Of a stretch of DNA of 64,000 bases, positions 5,676 to 48,283 are shown one piece after another. Below the pieces are notes generated by a model that was given only the letters and a program-made list of their open reading frames with translations, was not told where the DNA came from and did no database searches. A program made the position numbers and the translations under genes. How positions within the stretch are numbered: the stretch's first letter is position 1; each line of letters begins with the position of its first letter. The DNA is from Calothrix sp. PCC 7716 (GTDB lineage: Bacteria; Cyanobacteriota; Cyanobacteriia; Cyanobacteriales; Nostocaceae), in contig NZ_AP025018.1 in assembly GCF_019977735.1 (NCBI RefSeq), forward strand, positions 10,420,580-10,484,579, given 5' to 3'.

Positions 5676-7127
5676 CTACCGATATTCTAAAAGACGTTTA
5701 CGTAGTCCAAATAGCGTTAGAGTAGAAATAGTTAAAGTAGCAATAACAGTAATAGCTTCAAAACCTTGGATATTTTGAAAACCTTGGTCAATATATTTAT
5801 CAAGAACTTTATTATTAATTTCTTGGGCTTTAAGGTGAGCTTTTTTAAATTCGTCAAATGCAAAGTTTGATTGCCCTTTATCTTTACCTACATTTAACTT
5901 GACTGCTTCAAGATGTTTTCCACTTTGTTCTAACTGCCGAATTTGCTTGTCAATATCTAAATAGTCACCAAACGTTGAAATTGCTTTTATTACTGCTTCG
6001 CGCTCGCCAGTAAAAGTAATATTATTAATCTCAGTCGCAAATAACCCTGTTATACCTTCAACTTTTTTGCCAGCAATTAATGTTGCTTTGACATCATTCC
6101 AAGTTTTGCCAACAGGTAATTTCATAATTTGATTGACTTTATCAAAAAAGGCTTGTTCGTGCTTGAGTGCGTTCTCTTTATCTAATAAATAACGGCTTTC
6201 ATCTGCATTGGCGCCATAAGCAAGTGCGCGTGCTTGACGTAATGCATAAAGCGAATTAAAAGCATCTTCTTTTGCAACCTTTAAATTATTAGATGCTGAA
6301 ATTAGAGATTGTGTAGTGTATCCAAGGAATAGTAATGTCATTGCTGTTGCACCTAACAAAAAGGGATTTAAAATCCGCCGCATCCGTAGATATAAAAACA
6401 CCTGTGTAACAGCTAAAAGTGCTAATAAAGTTGTACCTGAAATTAAAATTATAAATAGCGAAGCAGTTGTTTTAAAACCCTGTTGACTATAAATTATATC
6501 TAGTTGCTGTAAATTAACTTTATCGAGTTTATCAACAGCGGGCATTAATATATTATCTATAATTTGTGATGCTTCACGGTAAGCGAACAAAGCTCCATTT
6601 ACATCACCACGTTTATGAAAATCGCGCGCGCTTTGAACTTTTGCAATATAATCACCTAAACTTAACTGCAAAGTTTCAATAGGTTTGGTTTCAGCTTCAC
6701 CATAAGTAATATTTTTCGCAGCTATAATAAGTCGTTCTGAAAACGCTTTGCGACGTTCTTCATAGCCATCAATAGCACTACGTCGAAACTTATCATATTC
6801 TTGAGGTGCCCCAACATAATCTGTAGGTTTAAGAAGTAATTCATTTGCAACATAAGCATCCATACCTACTAAAGTATCTTTAATGCGTTGTGCAGTAATA
6901 ATACTGGGTATTGAATCTTTACCAACACTTTGAATTGCTTGCCTTTGAGTTTGGGCGCCAGAAATAGTAGTTAAAGCTAGCAGAAAACTGGCGCCCCAAG
7001 TCAGATAAAGAGCAGCTTTTAAAATTTGCGGAGTATTAAAATTCCTTTTCTTCAGTAACGAAATATATTTAGAACGCAAAACAGCAGTATTGTAATTCAT
7101 ATGTATTGTAGGTAATAGGTTACACAA
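5676..7127 (-). CDS. Four-segment membrane sensor, GlnX-like
   Basis: A 483-residue membrane protein with four predicted membrane segments (about 38-58, 220-243, 250-275, 452-475) that enclose two helical extracytoplasmic regions resembling four-helix-bundle sensors. Between the middle segments is RMRRILNPFLLGATAM. I compare it, from memory, with mycobacterial GlnX (Rv0412c), a four-segment protein encoded beside pknG that relays amino acid sensing to the kinase. Here it is the last gene of a PknG cluster, overlapping the FHA gene by 8 bp, which supports the analogy. The longest frame begins with TTG at 7127; the in-frame ATG at 7100 (MNYNTAVLRS) is an equally likely start. No GlnH-type binding protein is seen nearby. 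Confidence 0.6.
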   Translation of the reverse strand: MCNLLPTIHMNYNTAVLRSKYISLLKKRNFNTPQILKAALYLTWGASFLLALTTISGAQTQRQAIQSVGKDSIPSIITAQRIKDTLVGMDAYVANELLLKPTDYVGAPQEYDKFRRSAIDGYEERRKAFSERLIIAAKNITYGEAETKPIETLQLSLGDYIAKVQSARDFHKRGDVNGALFAYREASQIIDNILMPAVDKLDKVNLQQLDIIYSQQGFKTTASLFIILISGTTLLALLAVTQVFLYLRMRRILNPFLLGATAMTLLFLGYTTQSLISASNNLKVAKEDAFNSLYALRQARALAYGANADESRYLLDKENALKHEQAFFDKVNQIMKLPVGKTWNDVKATLIAGKKVEGITGLFATEINNITFTGEREAVIKAISTFGDYLDIDKQIRQLEQSGKHLEAVKLNVGKDKGQSNFAFDEFKKAHLKAQEINNKVLDKYIDQGFQNIQGFEAITVIATLTISTLTLFGLRKRLLEYR

Positions 7128-7800
7128 ATCTAACCTTGATTCGAGTCCAATGTCCTAAAGTAAACTCATCACCATCTTTAAGAACAGCATCAACCATTGG
7201 CGTTAATTCCAAAGTGTTAAGTACAGTTCCATTTGACGAATCAATGTCGCGCAAAGTAAAAGTTCCATCGCTTTGACGATTAATTAGCGCATGACGATGC
7301 GAAACAGCAGTGTCAAAATTGAGTGCTATCTCTGGATTAATACCACGCGCAACACTTAGGCGCCCAATTAAGTTACTGTCCTTATCAAGTCGTAAAATAA
7401 TTGGTGGCTGATTAGGAGCTTCTGGACTTTCAGCATTTCGTAACGCAGGGTCAACAGTAATAGTAATTTCTAGGGAGTGCTGAGTGCTGAGTGCTAAGTG
7501 CTGAGTTGGAAGTGGGTACTCAGCACTCAGCACTTTATACTCAGCACTTTTTATTGGTATTTCTCCATGTACTCCTGTGTTAAAGTTGTACCCGCAAATT
7601 TCGCAGAAGTGACCGCTATTGGGGTCATGTGGAGCAGTACACGCAGGACAAGTTATTGCATTTTTTGTCAGCTTAGGTAAATTATCAGGTGGATTTACTG
7701 TAATTACCTGCTCAATACTACCCTGAATTTTGGCGCCGCACTCCGAACAATAATCAGGTTCTGTAGAAATGTGACCCTTTGGACATTTATAATTAGACAT
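7120..7800 (-). CDS. Zinc-ribbon FHA-domain protein
   Basis: A 226-residue soluble protein. Two CxxC zinc ribbons lie at about residues 5-25 (CPKGH, CSECG) and 48-72 (CPACT, CEICG). A C-terminal FHA domain at about 140-226 has the phosphothreonine-recognition signature GRLSVARG, SHRHALI, and SSNGTVLN. FHA domains bind phosphorylated Thr, so it is a plausible reader of the neighbouring PknG-type kinase. The gene starts 2 bp after the VWA stop and overlaps the next gene, so it is translationally coupled. The linker at about residues 84-108 is encoded by an inverted pair of heptamer repeats that appears to have been inserted in frame. Confidence 0.85.
   Translation of the reverse strand: MSNYKCPKGHISTEPDYCSECGAKIQGSIEQVITVNPPDNLPKLTKNAITCPACTAPHDPNSGHFCEICGYNFNTGVHGEIPIKSAEYKVLSAEYPLPTQHLALSTQHSLEITITVDPALRNAESPEAPNQPPIILRLDKDSNLIGRLSVARGINPEIALNFDTAVSHRHALINRQSDGTFTLRDIDSSNGTVLNTLELTPMVDAVLKDGDEFTLGHWTRIKVRFV
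7475..7548. repeat. Inverted heptamer (STRR) element inside the FHA gene
   Basis: The left arm (7475-7506) consists of four degenerate copies of GAGTGCT; the right arm (7518-7548) of copies of ACTCAGC, its reverse complement. Together they can form a long hairpin. The insert keeps the reading frame and encodes a Ser/Ala/Glu/Leu-rich linker between the zinc ribbons and the FHA domain. The same element recurs at 10473-10587 and in part at 29728-29768. Confidence 0.9.
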
Positions 7801-7802
7801 AA

Positions 7803-9077
7803 TTATGATTTGGGAATGCGGGTTGTTTTGGTGGAACGAGTTTCAAGTGTCATACTGTCTTCTTTGGCGACTTGACGCTTAATTTTGACTGTTCCAGTTG
7901 CTGCATCTTCAATATCAACGACTTTTTTGAGTAATTTAGCAGTAGCTTCGTTTCCTGACTCGTGGGCAAGTTTAACTGCTTTACCTAACTTCGCTGTAGC
8001 AACTTCGTAATCTCCTCTATCCCGTGCTTCTAATCCTTGTTGAATTGAATCAGCAAGTTCAGCTTGTCCTGTATAGTGAGCAACCGTTCGGTCAATTTTA
8101 GTAGACTTAGCATCATCATCCGTCCAAACAGCAATAATCCGCGCTTCGGCAACTTTGGTTTCAACACCATCAACGGTGTACATTAAACTTGCCCGACCAG
8201 CAAGCATTTCATCACCAACATTACCAGGGTTGACTTGAATACAAAAATGATAATCGCGCGATTCACTTTTACCCCAGGCGCCTGTAGGATAATCATTAAC
8301 TTGTGGTTTAACAAGTTTGGCGCGCGTTGTTAAATCTACAATATCAGGACTAACTTGCTTACAATACAAAACTTGGGCGCCACTCGGTGTCCACAAACGT
8401 AGTGACACATCGCTGATATTCTTATTCATAGCTGTTGCTAAAATCGTTTGAAAATCAGCTTCTATCATTTCTGGCTTTGCGATAATATCTGTCGTACCAA
8501 GTAATTTCCCTGATATTTGCTGTAACTGTTTAACACGCCAATCAGTCCCAACACCTCGACAATCACATTGAAACATCTCTTCGCAAGTACTCAGCACATT
8601 TTCTAATGCAATCTCATCCGAGTCATCATTTTGACCATCGGTAAGTAAAAGCGCTTGACGTAAACCATTCGGCATTTTATCAAACTGCTTACGAGCTTCA
8701 GCCAACCAACGCGAAATAACTGTACCACCACTAGCGCCTATCTTTTTTATCTCTCCTATCGCACGATGTTTATTATCAGGTGTCGCTTGAGAAACCGGAA
8801 AAATTAAACTAGCAATGCTGGCGCCTGTTACAATAAAAAACGAAGCATCCTCTGGCAGCAACTCCACAATTCTAATCATCGCCGCTTTTGCCGCGCGAAT
8901 CTTCTCACCCCCCATCGAGCCAGAAGTATCACAAATCACACCAAATAACTTACTAACACCTTGATTACTCGAAACACCATCACCAAAAGCAGCAACAGTC
9001 ATAATAGCGTGAACTTCCTTAGCATTTTGCGCGAGGAACTGATTTTGAAAAACTTCAGCCTTAAATTGAGTACTCAT
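7803..9077 (-). CDS. VWA-domain protein of the PknG cluster
   Basis: The 424-residue protein has a von Willebrand A domain at about 40-215 with an intact metal (MIDAS) site: DTSGSMGG near residue 50, the Thr in GASGGTVIS, and LLTDGQND. A beta-rich middle section and a helical C-terminus, like a single TPR-type region (about 340-395), follow. It has no signal peptide, so it is probably cytoplasmic. VWA, PP2C, FHA and kinase genes commonly cluster in bacterial signalling systems, where the VWA protein acts as a metal-dependent scaffold or phosphorylation target. Which role applies here is inference. Confidence 0.85.
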   Translation of the reverse strand: MSTQFKAEVFQNQFLAQNAKEVHAIMTVAAFGDGVSSNQGVSKLFGVICDTSGSMGGEKIRAAKAAMIRIVELLPEDASFFIVTGASIASLIFPVSQATPDNKHRAIGEIKKIGASGGTVISRWLAEARKQFDKMPNGLRQALLLTDGQNDDSDEIALENVLSTCEEMFQCDCRGVGTDWRVKQLQQISGKLLGTTDIIAKPEMIEADFQTILATAMNKNISDVSLRLWTPSGAQVLYCKQVSPDIVDLTTRAKLVKPQVNDYPTGAWGKSESRDYHFCIQVNPGNVGDEMLAGRASLMYTVDGVETKVAEARIIAVWTDDDAKSTKIDRTVAHYTGQAELADSIQQGLEARDRGDYEVATAKLGKAVKLAHESGNEATAKLLKKVVDIEDAATGTVKIKRQVAKEDSMTLETRSTKTTRIPKS

Positions 9078-9425
9078 AATAGATAATTAATGTTAGTCGT
9101 TGTAGGTTGGGTATAGCGGCAGCGTAACCCAACTAAAAAGTCTATTTTCTTGATAGAGTAAAGTGAAAAAATTTTTCTTGCTTTACTATCCTTTTATGAA
9201 CAAAAGCGAGCTTATTCAGTCCCATCAATTTCCAGAATTCCTCTATCAGCCATATATCATTTCTCTTTTAAAGTATTTCAAACAACTTGCGGTAAGAATC
9301 TTGAGTAAATTTATTGCCTTTATCATATTCATAAGAATTATACTTATAATAAATCTGTAGAATCTTTCGACATACAATATTGGTGATTTATTAGATGCTT
9401 CGTGCCTCAGCATGACAATTCTCAA
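9078..9425. other. Intergenic gap between VWA and PP2C genes
   Basis: This 348-bp AT-rich spacer lies between two genes of the same strand. It contains an inverted repeat near 9103-9133 (GTAGGTTGGGTAT...GTAACCCAAC), a common cyanobacterial hairpin. A 65-codon plus-strand open frame at 9163-9360 is very AT-rich and hydrophobic, lacks a ribosome site and is not called as a gene. Confidence 0.6.
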
Positions 9426-10445
9426 TTATAAAGAGAGTACAGCCACAGTAATATTGTCGTGTCCACCACACGCACGCGCGTACTCAACTAAACTACGTGC
9501 CATCGTTCCAGTATCCAAATGTAAATATTGCTTGACGAGTATTTCCATTTGTGAAGGTTCGGGAACATAATTCCATAATCCATCGCTGCATAATAATAGA
9601 TATCCAGTACCAGGAATATTAAACTCGAAAGGTGATGGATGGTTGTTTTCAGCATCGGCGCCTATCCAACTAGTAATAGCATGAGCATATGGTGATTTAC
9701 GTGCTTCAATTTCACTCATTTTTCCTAACTTAACAACTTCGTTAAACCACGAGTCATCTTCTGTTAGTAGCAGTGAACCACTAGGAGATATCCAATAAGC
9801 GCGACTATCACCCATTGATACAATTCTAGCTACACCATTCATAACAACTGCTGCCACTATAGTTGTTGATGGAGGGTCATTGTGTAAATTAGTTTTAGTA
9901 TAAGGAATGGTACATACTGCTTGTTTAGCAATTTCTATAGATTCGCGTATTATGTCTCTTTGATTATTTACCCCCTTTGCGAGTTCATCATTTACTCCTT
10001 CAACCAAAGCACGGCAAGTTGTTTCTGCTACAGCTTTAGACGCTAACTCTGCAAGTTGTGCGCTAGAAACACCATCACAAACAACCATTACATAAGCTTT
10101 ACCGTCATCAACTTCGGCACATGCGACAAAATCTTGATTATGATGATGTCTTAGTCCTCGGTCGCAACAAGCAGCTAGTTTCGGTGATATCATCACTTCA
10201 AAATGGTCAAGTTTACGTGGTTCACGTCGAAACCCACACTGGGTACAAAACCCCTCCTCATCGATTTCTGTTGCATCAGCACCACATTTTTCACATTGGT
10301 CTCTACTATCTATATTCCAATCTAAGCTGTCATCTTTATGCATTTGTGGTGAGAATGTTGGAACTGTTACTTGGGCGCCACATTCTTCACAAAAGTTATC
10401 ATCTATTTGTAGGGTTGCCCCACATTGAGAACATTGTAAATTCAT
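9426..10445 (-). CDS. PP2C-type serine/threonine phosphatase with zinc ribbons
   Basis: 339 residues. Two zinc ribbons come first (CSQCG/CEECG at 4-23 and CEKCG/CTQCG at about 52-77). The PP2C domain follows: NQDFVACAE and VVCDGVSSA (metal-binding Asp), MGDSRAYWI, LLCSDGLWNY and GGHDNITVAVL. All four aspartate motifs expected of an active PPM-type phosphatase are present. It presumably reverses phosphorylation by the PknG-type kinase encoded just upstream. A heptamer-repeat element fills the 145-bp gap to that kinase. Confidence 0.9.
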   Translation of the reverse strand: MNLQCSQCGATLQIDDNFCEECGAQVTVPTFSPQMHKDDSLDWNIDSRDQCEKCGADATEIDEEGFCTQCGFRREPRKLDHFEVMISPKLAACCDRGLRHHHNQDFVACAEVDDGKAYVMVVCDGVSSAQLAELASKAVAETTCRALVEGVNDELAKGVNNQRDIIRESIEIAKQAVCTIPYTKTNLHNDPPSTTIVAAVVMNGVARIVSMGDSRAYWISPSGSLLLTEDDSWFNEVVKLGKMSEIEARKSPYAHAITSWIGADAENNHPSPFEFNIPGTGYLLLCSDGLWNYVPEPSQMEILVKQYLHLDTGTMARSLVEYARACGGHDNITVAVLSL

Positions 10446-10472
10446 TTTAATAAGTTAGGAGTAATGAGTCAT

Positions 10473-10587
10473 GAGTGCTGAGTGCTGAGTGCTGAGTACT
10501 GAGTATTAAAGAACGGAGTTAGAAGTTAAAAGTTACAATTTTACATTCATAACTTTACTCAGCACTCAGCACTTTCTACTCAGCACT
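10473..10587. repeat. Inverted heptamer (STRR) element between pknG-like and PP2C genes
   Basis: The left arm has GAGTGCT three times, then GAGTACT and GAGTATT. About 50 bp later the right arm carries ACTCAGCACTCAGCAC and ACTCAGCACTC in inverted orientation. Structure and sequence match the element inside the FHA gene. It occupies most of the gap between two operon genes. Confidence 0.9.
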
Positions 10588-10590
10588 CTT

Positions 10591-12777
10591 TTATACCCAG
10601 GTTTTGGGACGGACACGGTTTGCTTCGTCAACTAGCTGAATTTTTTCGTCTCCTGTTGAAAGATGTGCCATATTACGAAGTGCTTTTTCTAGTCCTGTTC
10701 GTAAATGAACTTCTTTTAATGGTTGTCCTAAAATAGAAATGTTATCTGTGGGAGGAAGTTGTTTAGAAGTGACTAAGTTTAAAGCTGTTTCCAAGACTTG
10801 TTTGGCTAACCGATAAAGTTCAATACCGTCTAGAGTTAGTGTCTCAACTACTTTTGCGGCTTCTTGGAGTTCTTTGGCTACTGGCGCCCCATTTGAGTTA
10901 TCTATTAATGTATTGGCAATTTCAACGCGCGAGCGTGTATGTAAATTTGAGGTGTGGGGTATACGTTGTAATGCTGCTACTGCGTCACTACGTTTTCCTA
11001 GTACACGTAAACACCGTGATAAACCAAATGCTGCTGCTGTATAACTAGGGTCTTGAAGTGATACTAAGTCATACATTTGCATTGCTAACTTGAAATTTCC
11101 TGCTGCTTCTGCTGCTAAACCTAGTGCTAACTTAGGTGCTAGTTCTCCTGGTAAATCAAAATAAACTTGGTCAAATATCTTTTGTGCTTCTTGATATTTA
11201 CCTTGTGCCATCAAACTGCGTCCTCGGTACCATAGTACTCGCCAGTCCCAAGCGTCTTTTTCTTCAACTTGTTTTAAGTATTGTTCGGCTTCTTCATAGT
11301 TACTAGCTTCAATTAAACTATTAGCCAATCTTAATAATGCTTCGCGAGAGTTAGGATACTGTTGAACAACTTGTCTTAAATTAGTAATTTGCAAGTTGAT
11401 TACACTCACGGCGCCTGCTGCTAATATACCATTACAGCTAGGGTCTGTTGTGTCGAGTAATGGCATTGGTAATTGATGATAATTTGGTTTAATGGCGCCG
11501 AAACTATTACCATCCATTAAAGCCAACATATCACCACCAAACATCGTACTGGTACTTGGACGTGGTGTACCAGTTTGTTTTGCTACTATTTCTCTTAGTA
11601 CTCCTAAAAGCTGCTCTGCCATTTCATCAGCAGATTGAAACCTTTCATCAGGGTTTTCCGCAGTAGATTTGAGTAAAAACCTGTACAAAGATTCTTGTTC
11701 GGCAAATAAAGGTTCTTCTTGTGGAGTTGGTAATTTATATAAATGTTCTTTACTAAAAGAGCGAATGTTAGTAAGTAAAACAGCCAAGGTTCTACCAATA
11801 GTATATAAATCTGATACGGGTGTGGGTCCAGAACCTGCTTCGGGTGCGCTGTAACCAACTGTACCGTAAATATCGCCATTGGGGTCATCAATGCGTCGTA
11901 CCCCACCCATATCAATCAATTTAACATCACTGCCTTCAAGCATGACATTATCAGGTTTAAAGTCACAATAAACTAAACCCAGTGAATGTAAATAAGCAAA
12001 AGCACTTAATATTCTATGAATATAAGCAATAGCTTCGGCAACTGGTAAAGGCCCCCGTTCTTTGCGAATATCCTTAAGCGTTTTACCACCGACATACTCC
12101 ATAATAATGAAGCCTTCGGCGCCGTGATTGACAAAGTTATAAATTCCGACGATATTACCGTGTTTTACAGAAGCTAAAAATTGCCTCTCAGCTACAGCAA
12201 CCGCAGCACTTGAAGCATCTTCTGTATTTAGTAATCCTTTCAAAACTACATAACGCGAAAGAGTTATATCAAAACCAAGATAAATCCATCCTAAACCACC
12301 ATATGCAATGGCGCCTTTAACTTCATACTGTCCCGAAACAACATCACCACGAGTTAAGGAAGGAACAAAAGAATACTTCTGACCGCACTGAGGACAAAAA
12401 CCTTTTTCTCTTTTTAAAGGATTATTACAATTTGAGCAAAAGCGTTTGTTTTCAGGCACTTTCGCTTCAGCCATTATCAGCTTTTCAGGGTCAGTCGAAG
12501 GTAGTTCGGGTATAGATATTAACCCGGCGCCTAATTGTTTTCGACTACTTCCTCTTGATGTTCCTCCAGTACGTCTTGAACCGCGCGAGCGACTATTAAG
12601 AGGTGAGGAACCTGTACCAGTAGTGATGTTACCACTAACCTTAGTGGGCTGGTTGTGTAATGAAGTTTGTATATTAGATGCGAGTACGCTTTTAATCACA
12701 GCGTGTCCGCATACATCGCAATAGCCATCTTCAATCTTACCACTACACCCACTGCGCTTGCAGTTTTCACCGTCCAT
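10591..12777 (-). CDS. pknG: PknG-type serine/threonine protein kinase
   Basis: 728 residues with the complete PknG architecture: an N-terminal zinc ribbon (C6, C11, C20, C23), a low-complexity Ser/Arg/Gly linker (about 50-80), a rubredoxin-like metal site (C114, C117, C128, C131), a kinase domain (about 150-405) and a TPR region to the end. Kinase motifs are AYGGLGWIYLG, VVLKGLL (catalytic Lys), VYCDFKPDN (HRD loop without the Arg, as in PknG) and IDMGGV in place of DFG. The motif GELAPKLALGLAAEAAGN and the C-terminus LVDEANRVRPK closely match the mycobacterial protein as I remember it. PknG regulates central nitrogen and carbon metabolism through FHA-protein phosphorylation in actinobacteria. 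The substrate here is unknown; the FHA protein is an obvious candidate. Confidence 0.9.
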   Translation of the reverse strand: MDGENCKRSGCSGKIEDGYCDVCGHAVIKSVLASNIQTSLHNQPTKVSGNITTGTGSSPLNSRSRGSRRTGGTSRGSSRKQLGAGLISIPELPSTDPEKLIMAEAKVPENKRFCSNCNNPLKREKGFCPQCGQKYSFVPSLTRGDVVSGQYEVKGAIAYGGLGWIYLGFDITLSRYVVLKGLLNTEDASSAAVAVAERQFLASVKHGNIVGIYNFVNHGAEGFIIMEYVGGKTLKDIRKERGPLPVAEAIAYIHRILSAFAYLHSLGLVYCDFKPDNVMLEGSDVKLIDMGGVRRIDDPNGDIYGTVGYSAPEAGSGPTPVSDLYTIGRTLAVLLTNIRSFSKEHLYKLPTPQEEPLFAEQESLYRFLLKSTAENPDERFQSADEMAEQLLGVLREIVAKQTGTPRPSTSTMFGGDMLALMDGNSFGAIKPNYHQLPMPLLDTTDPSCNGILAAGAVSVINLQITNLRQVVQQYPNSREALLRLANSLIEASNYEEAEQYLKQVEEKDAWDWRVLWYRGRSLMAQGKYQEAQKIFDQVYFDLPGELAPKLALGLAAEAAGNFKLAMQMYDLVSLQDPSYTAAAFGLSRCLRVLGKRSDAVAALQRIPHTSNLHTRSRVEIANTLIDNSNGAPVAKELQEAAKVVETLTLDGIELYRLAKQVLETALNLVTSKQLPPTDNISILGQPLKEVHLRTGLEKALRNMAHLSTGDEKIQLVDEANRVRPKTWV

Positions 12778-12973
12778 GCGGACTCTCCTTTGATGATTTA
12801 GGTAGTAATAACACGCTCAATTAAACCTCTTACCTTTATGTCCTTTGTGTACGAGCATGGTTAAATTTTCCTTATATTTAGGTTGCCCAAAATTAAAGTT
12901 AGTTTAACCATATATATAGTTTCTTTATCAAAACGCTAAATTTATGCTTTTTAAGAAAAAGGAACCACAGTAG

Positions 12974-12994
12974 CCTAGGGGTTTCAACCCTAGG
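12974..12994. repeat. CCTAGGG hairpin between coiled-coil and kinase genes
   Basis: CCTAGGG, a 7-base loop and CCCTAGG form a perfect hairpin 50 bp downstream of the coiled-coil gene on the minus strand. A second small hairpin, GAGAG-TTT-CTCTC, lies at about 13016-13028. Neither has a clear T-run, so processing, attenuation or a dispersed repeat is as likely as termination. Confidence 0.55.
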
Positions 12995-13044
12995 AAAGCA
13001 AAGGAAAGAGGGTTTAAGAGAGTTTCTCTCTACTACAACACGAC

Positions 13045-14265
13045 TTATCGCAAATTCGGATAACTATTCAATCTTTTTTCATATTTTGTTACCAACTCCG
13101 CTGCTTCATGTAGAGGAGTTGGGCGAGTATATAATATTTTTTTAGCTTGTTGCGCGAGTTCTTGTAGCACAGTATCCTCGACACAACCGCGCGCGAGTGC
13201 TTTAGCAACTAATGCATCAAGTCTACCGCGTAACTCACTACGGAAATCTAATGGCACCTGATTAGCTGCAAAAGTATTTTTTTCTTTAGCTATATATTCC
13301 TTCACCTTAGTAGTCCAGTTTTCCAGACCAACCCGTACAGGATTGAATAAACCATCATTAAATTTTATTTCTAACCTATCTAACCATGCTTCTAAAGCTT
13401 GTACTTCCTCATCAGTAAGCGGGTTTTGTAATTTAGAATGGTCAGCTACCTTACTTTTGCTCTCATCATAAGCAACTTTAGCTTGATAATGGATTTTTTG
13501 TAAATTAGATAAATGGTTACGCGCTGTTATCAAACCCAAGCGTACAGACTCTCGCTGTTGCCTTGCCACATCCAGCATTGACTTCAGCTTCATTATTTGA
13601 GGTTGAATAGACTTCAAAAATTCTTCATTCACCCCCAGCGGGTCAGACTCAACCAAAGCGCGCTGTTGCTTAAGCTTTTGAGCAACATCAACTATTTCCT
13701 CCAAACAATCAATATTTAAAGACTCAGCCAAATATTGTAACTGCCGAGTTTCTATTTCGATATTTATCAAACTAGGTTCTAGACGTGACCACACCTCATC
13801 AACAGCTAAAACCACATCTTTCGCAGCTTGAAATGCGCTGGTCATTAACTTTAATAACTCTTGCGGAGTTATAGCATTAATAGCTTGGGAAGCAGAAAGT
13901 AATCCCCGTTGTGCCAAAGGTATTGTCTCAATCGATAAATGAATCGAAGGTTTAGTTAATAAATCTTCAATTTCTTGAACTTTCTGTAGCGATGCCAAAA
14001 ATCTTGGTATCGAACCTCGCAACTGTACAGCTTTATCAATAGTCTGCACCAGCAAATCAAAATTCTGGAATAACTCATTCATCACATGTAGCACAGGATT
14101 AACGCGCGCTAGCGTCACCCCCATCAACTTCACTCTGGGAAAACCCGAAATACCACAAAGTCGTTGGTATGCATCGAGTCCGTGTAAATCAATTAGATTT
14201 TGACCTACAACGTCGAGTTTAAATTTCCAGTCAGCAAGGAGTTGGTCGATTTCTTCTAAATTCAC
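13045..14265 (-). CDS. Coiled-coil protein upstream of the PknG-type kinase
   Basis: A 406-residue, almost wholly helical protein with no cysteine motif, signal peptide or membrane segment. Residues about 170-290 and 330-400 have strong heptad character. I do not recognise a family. It is the first gene of the minus-strand run ending at 5676, 267 bp upstream of the PknG-type gene, so it may belong to the same transcription unit. Being soluble and rod-like, it could be a scaffold, but that is only inference. Confidence 0.75.
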   Translation of the reverse strand: MNLEEIDQLLADWKFKLDVVGQNLIDLHGLDAYQRLCGISGFPRVKLMGVTLARVNPVLHVMNELFQNFDLLVQTIDKAVQLRGSIPRFLASLQKVQEIEDLLTKPSIHLSIETIPLAQRGLLSASQAINAITPQELLKLMTSAFQAAKDVVLAVDEVWSRLEPSLINIEIETRQLQYLAESLNIDCLEEIVDVAQKLKQQRALVESDPLGVNEEFLKSIQPQIMKLKSMLDVARQQRESVRLGLITARNHLSNLQKIHYQAKVAYDESKSKVADHSKLQNPLTDEEVQALEAWLDRLEIKFNDGLFNPVRVGLENWTTKVKEYIAKEKNTFAANQVPLDFRSELRGRLDALVAKALARGCVEDTVLQELAQQAKKILYTRPTPLHEAAELVTKYEKRLNSYPNLR

Positions 14266-14748: not shown

Positions 14749-15666
14749 ATGATGAAGAAACCGTTTCGGCAAAGCGTGTTTGTCTTTGTATTAATTGTAA
14801 CATTAACAACAGGATGTCGCGGAAGTAGTGAGTATAAAAAACTTGCAGATGCAGGAAATCAATATACAAATGCAGTTGACAAGTTACTTGTAGCTACTAT
14901 TGACATACATCTTGAATCAAGCTCTAGGGAGCTTCTGGATAAAATGGGTAACTATGATGTTTCAGATGACGAGGATAGATCTGAAATAAAAAATAGATTA
15001 ATAAAATCTTCTCAGTCTGACGCAGAGTATTTAGAAGCCATTAGGGGTTTACGTGAGCATAACAAATTATTAGGCGATTATTTTCGACAACTTAATAAAC
15101 TTGCAGCCTCTGATGCATCTGCAAACTTGCCAGGACAGCTTATTACAACTGCCAATAATCTCACAAGAACTGGAAAAGAACTCTTAGGGGTCTTAGAGCG
15201 AAATAACGCTACAAGTACTGAAAAAAAAACAGAGACAAGCAACTCTAAAAAGGCTGGACTTTTTCCGGACATCAATAGTCCTGTTTCATCAAACATTACT
15301 GGTGCATTACGCTCGGAATTAGAGCAGCGCAAAGATATAATTATGAGTGAAATAGTAATCCAAAAAGAAATGTTGCAACTGATTGGGGAGCAAATGGAAC
15401 AAAGAGCTCAAACAATTCGTGAAATAGAACAAAAACGTATTCTTATGGCACCACTAGTGCGACAGGAAAAATTGTCTGAGCAAGAACAAACTGAATGGAT
15501 AGCAATGCGAAAGAATTTACAAACAATGTACAGTACAGCAGAAGAGCTTAGTGAAGCAAGTAGAACATTGGGTAATCTTCAAGCTGTATTTCAAGCTTTT
15601 ATTGAGGGAAAATCAACTCTTGATAAACTTAATAATGTTTCAAAACAGATAAAAGAACTCAAGTAA
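14749..15666 (+). CDS. Predicted lipoprotein, helical, unknown function
   Basis: The 305-residue product has a lipoprotein signal: charged MMKKPFRQ, a hydrophobic stretch and a lipobox LTTGC, with lipidation expected at C23. The mature part is nearly all helical and coiled-coil, with a Ser/Lys/Asn-rich linker at about residues 155-175. It should be anchored to a membrane facing the periplasm. I do not recognise a family. A second small helical gene follows 27 bp later, so the two probably form an operon. Long AT-rich stretches and no GGCGCC sites set this pair slightly apart from its surroundings. Confidence 0.75.
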   Translation: MMKKPFRQSVFVFVLIVTLTTGCRGSSEYKKLADAGNQYTNAVDKLLVATIDIHLESSSRELLDKMGNYDVSDDEDRSEIKNRLIKSSQSDAEYLEAIRGLREHNKLLGDYFRQLNKLAASDASANLPGQLITTANNLTRTGKELLGVLERNNATSTEKKTETSNSKKAGLFPDINSPVSSNITGALRSELEQRKDIIMSEIVIQKEMLQLIGEQMEQRAQTIREIEQKRILMAPLVRQEKLSEQEQTEWIAMRKNLQTMYSTAEELSEASRTLGNLQAVFQAFIEGKSTLDKLNNVSKQIKELK

Positions 15667-15693
15667 ACATTTACATTTTTAAGGTGAATTAAA

Positions 15694-16125
15694 ATGACTA
15701 ACAATCAAAATCAAAGTTCAAAACAAAAAATCTCAAATGTTAATAAAGATAACATTGGAGAAGTTTTTAAAGGGGCTAAAAATTGTGATGCAGACCTTGA
15801 AAAAATGATTCGTGAGTATTTTAGTGAACTTAATCCACGAGTAGAGAAATTGAAAGTGACATTAGGTATTCAAGACAAAAATTTCAAAGAATTAAGAGAC
15901 CACCGAGAGTTGGTACATGATATGGTTAAGAAAATGGATACATATAAGATAAAAAAATTTCGTGAACAGCTCCAAGCGAATGAACAACAGTTGCGTAACG
16001 GAATACAAAAATTACAAGGTATGCTTAATCAGCTTGATAATAAGAACGGATTAGAGAATATTGTTAAACAGATAAAAATGCCAGGGATAGGAGGAATTGT
16101 TAAAAAATGTTTGGATTTATTTTAG
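15694..16125 (+). CDS. Small helical hypothetical protein
   Basis: 143 residues, charged and helical, with a coiled coil at about residues 85-125 and a hydrophobic glycine-rich end (MPGIGGIVKK). The ribosome site AAGGTG lies about 9 bases before the ATG. It follows the lipoprotein gene by 27 bp and is likely co-transcribed and functionally linked. No family recognised. Confidence 0.65.
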   Translation: MTNNQNQSSKQKISNVNKDNIGEVFKGAKNCDADLEKMIREYFSELNPRVEKLKVTLGIQDKNFKELRDHRELVHDMVKKMDTYKIKKFREQLQANEQQLRNGIQKLQGMLNQLDNKNGLENIVKQIKMPGIGGIVKKCLDLF

Positions 16126-44986: not shown

Positions 44987-45013
44987 TTGCCCTGGATGGA
45001 GTTTTCGTCACCC

Positions 45014-46624
45014 ATGACCGACCTGAAGCTACGACTCAAAGAGGGAAACACTGAAAAAACGGTAGAAGTGCATCAAGATGTGTTTACAATTGGTCGTCTA
45101 CCGGAATGCGACTTATATTTACCGTTTGGCGGAATTTCTCGCTATCATGCTCGTTTAGTAAAAGCACCTGATGACACATGGACAGTTGAGGATTTGGGTA
45201 GCAAAAACGGGACACACGTTAATGATAAAATGATTACGGCGCCACAACAATTCCATCATGGCGATGTAATATGGTTGGGAAACATCAGCCTGCTTGTGAT
45301 TCTCAAAAATAATGATTTTCGTCTTCAGGCATCAGGGTTCCCAGAAGCAGGAGAACAGCGAACTATCTTGCGAAACGTCAAGCAGTTGCGAGAAAGCTGG
45401 ATAGAAGCACAAGGAAACTCAGGTAGCGATAGTAACAAAGATAAAACAATTGCGCGTCTTAAGGATTTAGTAAACATCGCGAAAAATCTCTCTGCTGCTA
45501 CGTCAATAGAAGAAATTTTTGCACAAGTGCAGGAAGTTGTATTTCGCTACTTAGACAGTATAGACCGTTTAGCGCTATTAATCGATGTAAAAGGCTGTGG
45601 CAAGCTAGAATTAATAAGTGCAGCAGTACGAATTTCTGCTAAAGAAAAAAAACTTTCAGCAGATGGCAGTTGGGTAAGTCGCAGTATTTGCCAAAAAGTA
45701 TTTGAAGAAAAAATAGCGATTCAAATTGCCGACGCACAAAACGACGAAAGATTTGCAAGCGAACACAGTATATTAATGAACGATATTCGCAGCGCAATGG
45801 CTGTACCTCTGTGGGATGAAAATAAAGTAGTTGGCGTTTTATATGCAGACGCGCATCTTTCTTCATACCATTGGGAAGCAGAAGGAGAGCAAGAGTTAAG
45901 TTTTTTCTCAGCGCTAGCAAATATTGTAGCATCGAGCGTTCAACGTTGGTTGTTAGCAGAAAAACTTAAAAGCGAAGAAATAATACGTCAGCGTTTAGAA
46001 CGATATCATTCACCAGCAGTTGTTCAGCAATTAATCGAGGTTGGTGCTTTACCCGATGGACGTTTACCACCCAAAGAAAGCGAAATTAGCATTTTATTCG
46101 CCGATATCGTTGGATTTACAGCTATTTCCGAACGAATGACACCAACGCAAATTGCCGAAATGCTCAATAATTTATTTGAAGAAATGCTTCAAGAGGTTTT
46201 TGCCTACGGTGGCACTTTAGATAAATATATCGGTGATTGTATCATGGCTTTTTTCGGCGCCCCCGAACTACAGCCCGACCATGCAGAACGTGCGGTTGCT
46301 GCTGCACAAGGAATGTTAATTAGGTTAGAGAATCTAAATGCCAATAACTTCTGGCAAGAACCTTTACAATTACGAATAGCAATTAACAGTGGTAAAGCCG
46401 TTGTTGGTGATGTTGGCAGTTCACAACGGGTAGAATACACTGCATTAGGAGCAACAATTAATTTAGCATCACGTTTAGAAAGTGTATGTCCACCAGGTGA
46501 ATGCGTCATCAGTGAAGCAACTTACCAACTTCTTAATGCCAATTCTTCATTTTACGAAATGGGTGAGTACCGCTTTAAAGGTATTGACCGCCTAGTAAAA
46601 GTATATCAAACAAGGATGCATTAA
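45014..46624 (+). CDS. FHA-GAF-class III nucleotide cyclase
   Basis: The 536-residue product has an FHA domain (about 15-95; FTIGRLPECDLYL, SRYHARLV, SKNGTHVN), a GAF domain (about 155-310) and a class III cyclase catalytic domain (about 350-535). The metal aspartates are in ILFADIVGFT and GDCIMAFFG, the purine-contact Lys in GTLDKYIGD, and the transition-state Asn/Arg in INLASRLE. The position that is usually Asp or Thr lies in LGATIN, so substrate preference needs testing. It would make cAMP or cGMP in response to a GAF ligand and to phosphopeptide binding. ATG 45014 is a tentative start; the frame extends to TTG 44987. Confidence 0.85.
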   Translation: MTDLKLRLKEGNTEKTVEVHQDVFTIGRLPECDLYLPFGGISRYHARLVKAPDDTWTVEDLGSKNGTHVNDKMITAPQQFHHGDVIWLGNISLLVILKNNDFRLQASGFPEAGEQRTILRNVKQLRESWIEAQGNSGSDSNKDKTIARLKDLVNIAKNLSAATSIEEIFAQVQEVVFRYLDSIDRLALLIDVKGCGKLELISAAVRISAKEKKLSADGSWVSRSICQKVFEEKIAIQIADAQNDERFASEHSILMNDIRSAMAVPLWDENKVVGVLYADAHLSSYHWEAEGEQELSFFSALANIVASSVQRWLLAEKLKSEEIIRQRLERYHSPAVVQQLIEVGALPDGRLPPKESEISILFADIVGFTAISERMTPTQIAEMLNNLFEEMLQEVFAYGGTLDKYIGDCIMAFFGAPELQPDHAERAVAAAQGMLIRLENLNANNFWQEPLQLRIAINSGKAVVGDVGSSQRVEYTALGATINLASRLESVCPPGECVISEATYQLLNANSSFYEMGEYRFKGIDRLVKVYQTRMH

Positions 46625-46918: not shown

Positions 46919-48283
46919 ATGGCAATAGCCACCATAAATCCCGCTACCGGGGAACTAATCAGGACTTTCGAGCCGCTCAATGATACTGAAATAGGCGCCA
47001 AAATAGATTTGGCACAGCAGGTATTTTTGAAATATCGTCACACAAGTTTCGAGACGCGCTCGCATTTACTGAGCAAAGTAGCAGAGATTTTAGAACAAGA
47101 CAAAGCTAAATTTGCAGCTTTGATGACTTTAGAAATGGGCAAAACTTACAAAAGTGCTATTGCTGAAGTCGAAAAATGCGCTCTTGTGTGTCGTTATTAT
47201 GCCGAAACGGCACCGCAATTTCTAGCTGATAACAGTGTCGAAACAGATGCAAGCGCTAGTTTTATTCGCTACCAACCGTTAGGTATTATTCTTGCTGTAA
47301 TGCCGTGGAATTTCCCCTTCTGGCAAGTCTTTCGCTTTGCGGCGCCAGCTTTAATGGCAGGTAATGTTGGTATATTAAAACATGCTTCAAACGTACCTCA
47401 GTGTGCCATAGCTATCGAAGAAATTTTTCAAAAAGCAGGCTTTGAGGCAGGTGTATTTCAAACTTTCCTCATCGGCGCTAAAAAAGTCGCTGACATTATA
47501 ACCGACGACCGCGTAAAAGCCGCAACCCTAACAGGTAGCGAGCCAGCAGGCGCCTCACTAGCAGCAGCAGCAGGCAAAGAAATTAAAAAAGTCGTATTAG
47601 AACTAGGTGGAAGCGACCCATTTATAGTAATGGAGAGTGCAGACCTAGAGCTAGCAGCAACAACAGCCACAAGCGCGCGCATGTTAAACAACGGACAATC
47701 ATGCATCGCAGCCAAACGATTTATAGTCACCGAAACAATAGCAGATAAATTTGAAAAATTACTCCTACAAAAATTCCAAGCTTTAAAAATTGGCGACCCC
47801 ATGTCAACCGACACCGACATCGGCCCACTCGCGACACCCAATATCCTTCAAGATATAGACTCGCAAGTAAAAGCTGCCGTCAACAACGGAGCAAAAGTAT
47901 TAACAGGTGGTAATCCTATCGATGACCGTCCTGGTAACTTTTATCCACCAACAATCTTAAAAATTTCTAAAGACAACCCCATTGCTAAAGAAGAATTCTT
48001 CGGACCAGTGGCAATGTTGTTTCGAGTCAAAGATATCGACGCAGCTATTGAACTTGCCAATGATATACCCTTTGGCTTAGGCGCCAGTGCTTGGAGTAAC
48101 GATGAAAGCGAGCAAAAACGCTTCATCAACGAAATCGAAGCAGGTTCAGTATTTATCAACGGCATGGTAAAATCAGACCCCCGTTTACCTTTCGGGGGCA
48201 TTAAACGTTCTGGTTACGGTCGCGAACTAAGTATCCAGGGGATACATGAGTTTGTAAATGTTAAAACAGTGTGGGTCAAATAA
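46919..48283 (+). CDS. gabD: Succinate-semialdehyde dehydrogenase
   Basis: 454 residues of the aldehyde dehydrogenase superfamily: MPWNFPFWQVFR (oxyanion Asn), LTGSEPAGASLAAAAG (cofactor), VVLELGGSDPFIV with catalytic Glu, NNGQSCIAAKRF with catalytic Cys, and the C-terminal GRELSIQGIHEFVN. It oxidises succinate semialdehyde to succinate with NADP or NAD. A good ribosome site (GGGAGG) precedes ATG. It lies 23 bp before 2-oxoglutarate decarboxylase; the two are known to complete a cyanobacterial TCA cycle. Confidence 0.93.
   Translation: MAIATINPATGELIRTFEPLNDTEIGAKIDLAQQVFLKYRHTSFETRSHLLSKVAEILEQDKAKFAALMTLEMGKTYKSAIAEVEKCALVCRYYAETAPQFLADNSVETDASASFIRYQPLGIILAVMPWNFPFWQVFRFAAPALMAGNVGILKHASNVPQCAIAIEEIFQKAGFEAGVFQTFLIGAKKVADIITDDRVKAATLTGSEPAGASLAAAAGKEIKKVVLELGGSDPFIVMESADLELAATTATSARMLNNGQSCIAAKRFIVTETIADKFEKLLLQKFQALKIGDPMSTDTDIGPLATPNILQDIDSQVKAAVNNGAKVLTGGNPIDDRPGNFYPPTILKISKDNPIAKEEFFGPVAMLFRVKDIDAAIELANDIPFGLGASAWSNDESEQKRFINEIEAGSVFINGMVKSDPRLPFGGIKRSGYGRELSIQGIHEFVNVKTVWVK

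Follow-up and report, generated by a model that had tools for sequence, protein, structure and literature searches.

A 64,000-nucleotide stretch of the Calothrix sp. PCC 7716 genome (contig NZ_AP025018.1, positions 10,420,580 to 10,484,579; hereafter the window) carries, on its minus strand between positions 5676 and 14265, a conserved set of six genes that we read, with moderate confidence, as a self-contained phosphorylation switch. Under this reading a GlnX-family membrane sensor would act on a PknG-type kinase, this kinase and a PP2C phosphatase would act on a zinc-ribbon FHA protein and a VWA protein resembling the archaeal pair ArnA and ArnB, and the output would pass through that pair rather than through inhibition by OdhI. 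The computed basis is homology, co-inheritance, gene order, the predicted folds of the GlnX and VWA proteins, the lack of an OdhA match in the genome and the lack of GlnH at the locus. From this we infer all of the interactions, the direction of signalling and the substrate of the kinase.

The genes are transcribed in the order HEL, PknG, PP2C, VWA, FHA, GlnX, and all features described below lie on the minus strand unless only a window position is given. An initial annotation had placed a PknG-type kinase, a PP2C, a VWA, a zinc-ribbon FHA and a GlnX-like protein in one orientation here, with tight coupling of the last three genes, and this description is borne out: all five are present, and only 2 nt separate VWA from FHA and 19 nt separate FHA from GlnX (counted from the GlnX ATG). 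The 406-residue protein that we call HEL, a name coined in this analysis, lies inside the same interval and had not been named; it is the sixth conserved member.

The kinase gene (10591..12777, 728 residues) encodes an N-terminal zinc ribbon, a rubredoxin domain (PknG_rubred, PF16919, 66.1 bits; residues 78-141, 12355..12546), a kinase domain (Pkinase, PF00069, 113.3 bits over residues 151-353) and a TPR domain (PknG_TPR, PF16918, 217.6 bits; residues 435-726, 10600..11475), with all three Pfam models over their cut-offs in one chain. The kinase domain spans residues ~144-403 (11569..12348), given that PknG kinase constructs align to residue 403. Residues 81-725 align with the solved M. tuberculosis PknG (2pzi, E 2.2e-133). 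Lys180, Glu197, Asp272, Asn277, Asp289 and the rubredoxin cysteines are present in 81 of 81 aligned rows, and the HRD-arginine position of the catalytic loop is Cys in 79 rows and Asn in two, never Arg; we take these aligned positions to be the catalytic residues and the arginine site, respectively. The phosphatase (9426..10445, 339 residues) joins an N-terminal double zinc ribbon (DZR, 33.3 bits) to a PP2C domain (PP2C_2, 50.3 bits) and scores 138 bits against an Stp1-type model, below its cut-off of 230. A scan of named genomes with two peptide patterns returned at least 492 loci, of which the best 80 are referred to here as the named loci. Under strict patterns the PP2C motifs occur in 53, 65, 64 and 65 of 66 sequences, and the zinc ribbon in 61 of 66, a count that is biased because the N-terminal zinc ribbon was one of the two search patterns.

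The sensor (5676..7100) reaches 295 bits with the NCBIfam model of the GlnX family, NF058618 (cut-off 250, which the C. glutamicum positive control also exceeds) and 41.3 bits against the equivalog NF041460 (GlnX, protein kinase G activation), short of its cut-off of 780. By these profile scores it is a member of the GlnX family, which NCBI has already named, and not of the equivalog. Hydropathy, a structure model and fold matches predict four membrane segments and two extracytoplasmic four-helix bundles, the published GlnX architecture. The suggested likeness of a 483-residue protein to GlnX therefore stands on both family score and architecture, but the length does not: because the aligned protein of locus L089 and others begin at the same methionine, the start is probably the ATG at 7100, giving 474 residues, and not the TTG at 7127. 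The structure alignments contain rows for 46 of 62 loci for GlnX and 38 of 65 loci for VWA. In the window's own genus the sensor appears to have been swapped: the GlnX proteins of L091, L092 and L094 are only 50-53% identical to that of the window and 81-84% identical to one another, and their PknG and VWA proteins are 91-95% and 93-97% identical to those of the window.

The zinc-ribbon FHA protein (7120..7800, 226 residues) has an FHA domain scoring 50.1 bits. Its zinc-ribbon match falls below the cut-off (DZR, 22.8 of 27.3 bits), and its cysteines are conserved, with two clusters ahead of the FHA domain in 35 of 35 rows of the family alignment. The FHA residues G146, R147, S149, S167, H170 and N190 are likewise present in all 35 rows, and in a wider set strict patterns recover GRxS in 54, SxxH in 49 and NG in all of 60. 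The adjoining VWA protein (7803..9077, 424 residues) matches VWA_3 and VWA_3_C in Pfam and is ArnB-like along its whole length, with an intact metal-ion-dependent adhesion site. In Sulfolobus, ArnA and ArnB form a motility repression pair (PMC6509490; PDB 8s05, 5a8j), which shares with the window an FHA protein with a zinc finger next to a VWA protein that is matched over its full length, with the metal site intact, and a tie to Ser/Thr kinases and a phosphatase. Unlike the archaeal pair, the window proteins belong to one set with PknG, GlnX and PP2C, carry two zinc ribbons and are not accompanied by an archaellum. The FHA and VWA proteins resemble an ArnA/ArnB-like pair, and phosphorylation-dependent binding between them is putative.

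The C-terminal segment of the VWA protein (residues 405-421, 7815..7865) carries a motif common to both phyla in which the set occurs. After removal of three incomplete rows (L132, L175, L179), M409, L411, S415, T418 and R420 are invariant over 63 rows, in which T413 is present 61 times and T416 60 times. By comparison with the ETTRR peptides of ArnB we considered residues 409-420 as a flexible, phosphorylatable docking tail and rejected this, since the segment is predicted to be ordered (block means of 92 and 86 in the predicted local distance difference test) and the solved structure 4fx5 aligns up to model residue 421; a structural reason for the conservation is as likely. A likeness of this tail to the ETTS motif of GarA was also dropped: among the seven of eight GarA-candidate loci in which the search pattern recovered a sequence, ETTS occurs only in L212. 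The 4fx5 protein, from Catenulispora acidiphila, is homologous over its entire length at 43% identity by fold alignment, so that a solved structure of the VWA component already exists; its entry title gives no function.

That these genes belong together is indicated by their conservation among cyanobacteria. At an E value of 1e-20, PknG_TPR is found in 36 of 217 genomes of the family group, which we take to be Nostocaceae, and GlnX in 35, the only disagreement being one genome that is 54% complete. Among 244 genomes sampled evenly across the phylum, four carry PknG and these four alone carry a GlnX above the cut-off, with 14 more genomes having weak GlnX matches only. Leaving aside five family genomes whose loci are split or truncated (G310, G399, G400, G401, G417), the remaining 31 of 36, from 14 genera, have PknG, VWA, FHA and GlnX in every case and HEL and PP2C in 30 each. 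Gene order is kept across the 14 genera while the flanking genes vary; counted by genus, the most frequent neighbours up to 4 kb away are ABC transporters (5 of 14), followed by a family present in 3. An order kept this widely between non-conserved flanks is more than chance, and the synteny expected of relatives if the set were a unit is thereby found. Pairwise identities over 29 genomes correlate at 0.97-0.98 among HEL, PknG, PP2C and VWA, at 0.86-0.89 between FHA and these four, and at 0.78-0.86 between GlnX and the other five. The fetched stretch contains all six genes in 31 of the 51 named cyanobacterial loci, several of the others being cut by contig ends. In Pseudanabaena (L135, L143) and in Microcoleus-type loci (L160, L161) the genes still lie together, rearranged or with an inverted HEL. 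The PP2C gene alone is missing from L171 (Desmonostoc vinosum) and L029, apparently the same contig.

The set also occurs in actinobacteria, so that to call it cyanobacterial, as the initial annotation did, is too narrow. Beside the 51 cyanobacterial loci, the best 80 include 28 that are actinobacterial or group there (one, L178, is unassigned) and L168, on a contig titled as an Acidobacteriaceae metagenome-assembled genome. L168 has the set in cyanobacterial order, with a PknG 58% identical to that of the window and HEL cut by the contig end; this may reflect transfer or mis-binning. The usual actinobacterial order is GlnX, GlnH, HEL, PknG, PP2C, VWA, FHA, and counting presence as more than 20 bits on our own profiles, with several GlnX and HEL matches weak (22-60 bits), the 28 loci have PP2C in 28, VWA in 27, FHA in 26, GlnX in 26, GlnH in 24 and HEL in 19. 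The GlnH protein is SBP_bac_3 in the two cases tested. In L192 GlnX is inverted and in L193 it follows FHA, with GlnH not found at either locus; L196 (Actinomadura) has the cyanobacterial order with GlnH last. As selection was pattern-based, the share of actinobacterial named loci with the set is not unbiased, and hypergeometric co-occurrence values were set aside because the genomes are related. A sample of 246 actinobacterial genomes, drawn independently of the peptide patterns, has PknG (E 1e-20) in 17 and VWA_3_C (E 1e-5) in ten, all within the 17; one of the ten, G432, the genome of L190 on which the sample is centred, had been chosen for having the set. Each of the ten VWA_3_C matches lies 2.2-2.9 kb from a PknG match on the same strand. 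The best Pfam TPR scores are 181-297 bits in these ten and 412-519 bits in the seven without VWA_3_C, which indicates that PknG occurs in at least two settings; we infer that the seven represent the well-studied short operon. In an unrooted tree of 81 PknG rows, cyanobacteria (52 with the window) and actinobacteria (28) each make up one side of a branch of their own (Shimodaira–Hasegawa-like approximate likelihood ratio test, 82 and 100), the PknG trees being quick searches with long-branch warnings. In the same kind of tree the PknG of L141 (Phormidesmis) clusters with a clade of heterocystous cyanobacteria, suggesting transfer within the phylum.

HEL (13045..14265, GTG start, first gene of the set) has no Pfam match, and the single family locus of the 31 from which it is missing is cut by the contig start. 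A search of its profile against the PDB gave no trustworthy match, the best being a coiled-coil type chain at E 0.0012. Of the nine actinobacterial loci without a HEL profile match, eight have an open reading frame of 368-464 residues between GlnH and PknG. Seven of these eight sequences, together with those of L184 and L185, make up a nine-member profile that aligns with cyanobacterial HEL over 81 C-terminal columns with a probability of 95.9 and E 6e-9 in profile-profile comparison.

TerY-type and type VI secretion system kinase–phosphatase–FHA sets were considered as comparable arrangements; a literature search for TerY yielded no paper. In actinobacteria, GAP1-N2 systems include triads of a kinase, often with a zinc ribbon, beside a PP2C and a stand-alone vWA protein (PMC7159879, whose text does not contain the word PknG). 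Unlike the window set, these triads come with a GTPase and GAP1, and a GlnX or FHA partner is not described in the part of that paper available. Another close system is the GlnH–GlnX–PknG–OdhI/GarA–OdhA cascade of Corynebacterium and Mycobacterium (available portions of PMC6069109, PMC9769921, PMC8546545), which shares with the window homologous PknG and GlnX proteins from linked genes, the former with rubredoxin and TPR domains and the latter with four transmembrane segments and a pair of helical-bundle domains in the periplasm. As far as these portions go, the operon described consists of glnX, glnH and pknG only, is conserved across actinobacteria (PMC6069109), and the kinase is mostly restricted to Actinobacteria, with homologues in Calothrix and Ktedonobacter (PMC8546545, where VWA does not appear in the text available). 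By contrast, the window locus lacks GlnH and has in addition a PP2C, a VWA protein, an FHA protein of a different kind and HEL. The set does not appear in the available parts of PMC2877116, PMC1262709 and PMC11032199, nor was a description of the cassette found in the literature searched, subscription papers and preprints lying outside its scope.

The initial annotation saw here what looks like a complete phospho-signalling system and pointed to actinobacteria, in which PknG controls 2-oxoglutarate metabolism via an FHA protein in response to GlnX/GlnH. A conserved set of kinase, phosphatase, phosphothreonine-reader domain, VWA protein and GlnX-family sensor agrees with the former; for this locus the latter is not supported. 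It is very unlikely that the window encodes the mycobacterial and corynebacterial cascade, in which the FHA protein would be OdhI/GarA and its phosphorylation by PknG would release a 2-oxoglutarate-metabolising enzyme, even though the genes for PknG, GlnX and an FHA protein lie side by side in one set and GarA-like proteins of other actinobacteria have, by eye, an N-terminal zinc ribbon. The OdhA model TIGR00239 has no match in the window genome and matches 7 of 14 control genomes. The OdhI model NF041660 has 13 matches there, none over the cut-off of 200 and the best at 46.6 bits, among which the FHA protein of the set ranks eleventh with 28.2 bits. The linker ahead of its FHA domain is unconserved and has no ETTS-type motif among the rows listed. 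Moreover, eight actinobacteria with a PknG of the window type each have a separate OdhI/GarA candidate (177-233 bits, one over the cut-off), and a GlnH profile finds nothing in 39 family stretches or in the 51 named cyanobacterial loci.

Least probable of all, by a small step, is that the genes travel together without joint function, or that PknG alone acts on many substrates. In five Chamaesiphon loci (L157, L158, L159, L162, L163) PknG stands without the other genes in the fetched stretch, which extends ~9 kb to both sides only in L157 and L159. Against this, order is maintained over 14 genera between unconserved flanks, two phyla have the set, the genes are permuted yet together in two groups, and the gene distances match. 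A more serious, though still unlikely, alternative is that GlnX is a direct receptor for another small molecule, such as nitrate or an amino acid, and that the set responds to nutrients or stress as a switch acting through FHA-VWA on gene expression or envelope functions. The four-helix bundles, however, resemble many unrelated proteins, and the match to NasR is loose. An NtcA-type site was found upstream of 1 of 34 loci where base shuffles lead one to expect 4.9, so the proposed NtcA link was rejected; a PhoB-like pattern occurs at 1 of 34 against 1.4 expected. An unlinked binding protein could also serve GlnX: searched with GlnH, the Calothrix genome shows seven distant solute-binding proteins (26-30% identity), none inside the window.

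The phosphorylation switch that we favour would work as follows. GlnX, in the inner membrane, would sense a periplasmic signal through its two four-helix-bundle domains with no involvement of GlnH, and would activate cytoplasmic PknG, probably by way of the TPR domain, a route put forward for C. glutamicum. PknG and PP2C would then set the phosphorylation of the ArnA/ArnB-like pair, with the zinc-ribbon FHA protein as reader, and the FHA-VWA complex would carry an output other than OdhI inhibition of 2-oxoglutarate dehydrogenase. HEL, a constant and unexplained member, is perhaps an adaptor.

Several further observations concern the surroundings. The 12.37 Mb genome has one strong PknG, one sub-cut-off TPR match and one GlnX; among named organisms, Dulcicalothrix desertica and Calothrix are closest to it. 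The ABC-transporter and radical-SAM genes that flank the set in the window have close relatives within the genus only. A divergent pair at window positions 14749-16125 (305 residues, with a lipoprotein-like start by eye, and 143 residues) recurs only in L091 among 39 family stretches searched. A second FHA protein at 44987-46624 appears by eye to combine FHA, GAF and adenylate cyclase domains, its FHA part matching the OdhI model with 42.7 bits, and is followed by a gene (46919-48283) that looks aldehyde dehydrogenase-like. In L175, a metagenome-assembled genome titled Richelia, PknG and VWA each lie in two overlapping frames, through frameshifts or assembly errors. Genes that by eye resemble nitrate uptake and reduction genes beside the L157 PknG were set aside, being unrepeated in the four other Chamaesiphon stretches, among which L159 alone extends far enough on both sides to show them. 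A defence role was likewise discarded, PADLOC yielding a single weak match for the phosphatase and, for PknG, many to its kinase domain.

The same set, with an extra sensor gene, is found again in actinobacteria, so the role of PknG is probably broader than, and in part different from, the one known in mycobacteria. We tentatively suggest, at rather less than even confidence, that the original PknG system was a six- to seven-gene cassette with its own phosphatase and an ArnA/ArnB-like FHA-VWA output, and that the glnX-glnH-pknG operon of mycobacteria and corynebacteria, which acts on GarA/OdhI, arose from it by reduction and took on a new output. Studies of PknG concern its part in regulating the metabolism of mycobacteria and corynebacteria; cyanobacteria and many of the actinobacterial loci examined add four conserved proteins, among them a phosphatase and a phosphothreonine reader, that go unmentioned in the available parts of the PknG papers examined. 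The set is a natural candidate list of PknG substrates and partners, its GlnX without GlnH isolates what GlnX alone senses, and in free-living organisms it puts a bacterial relative of the ArnAB switch of archaea next to the kinase that likely acts on it.

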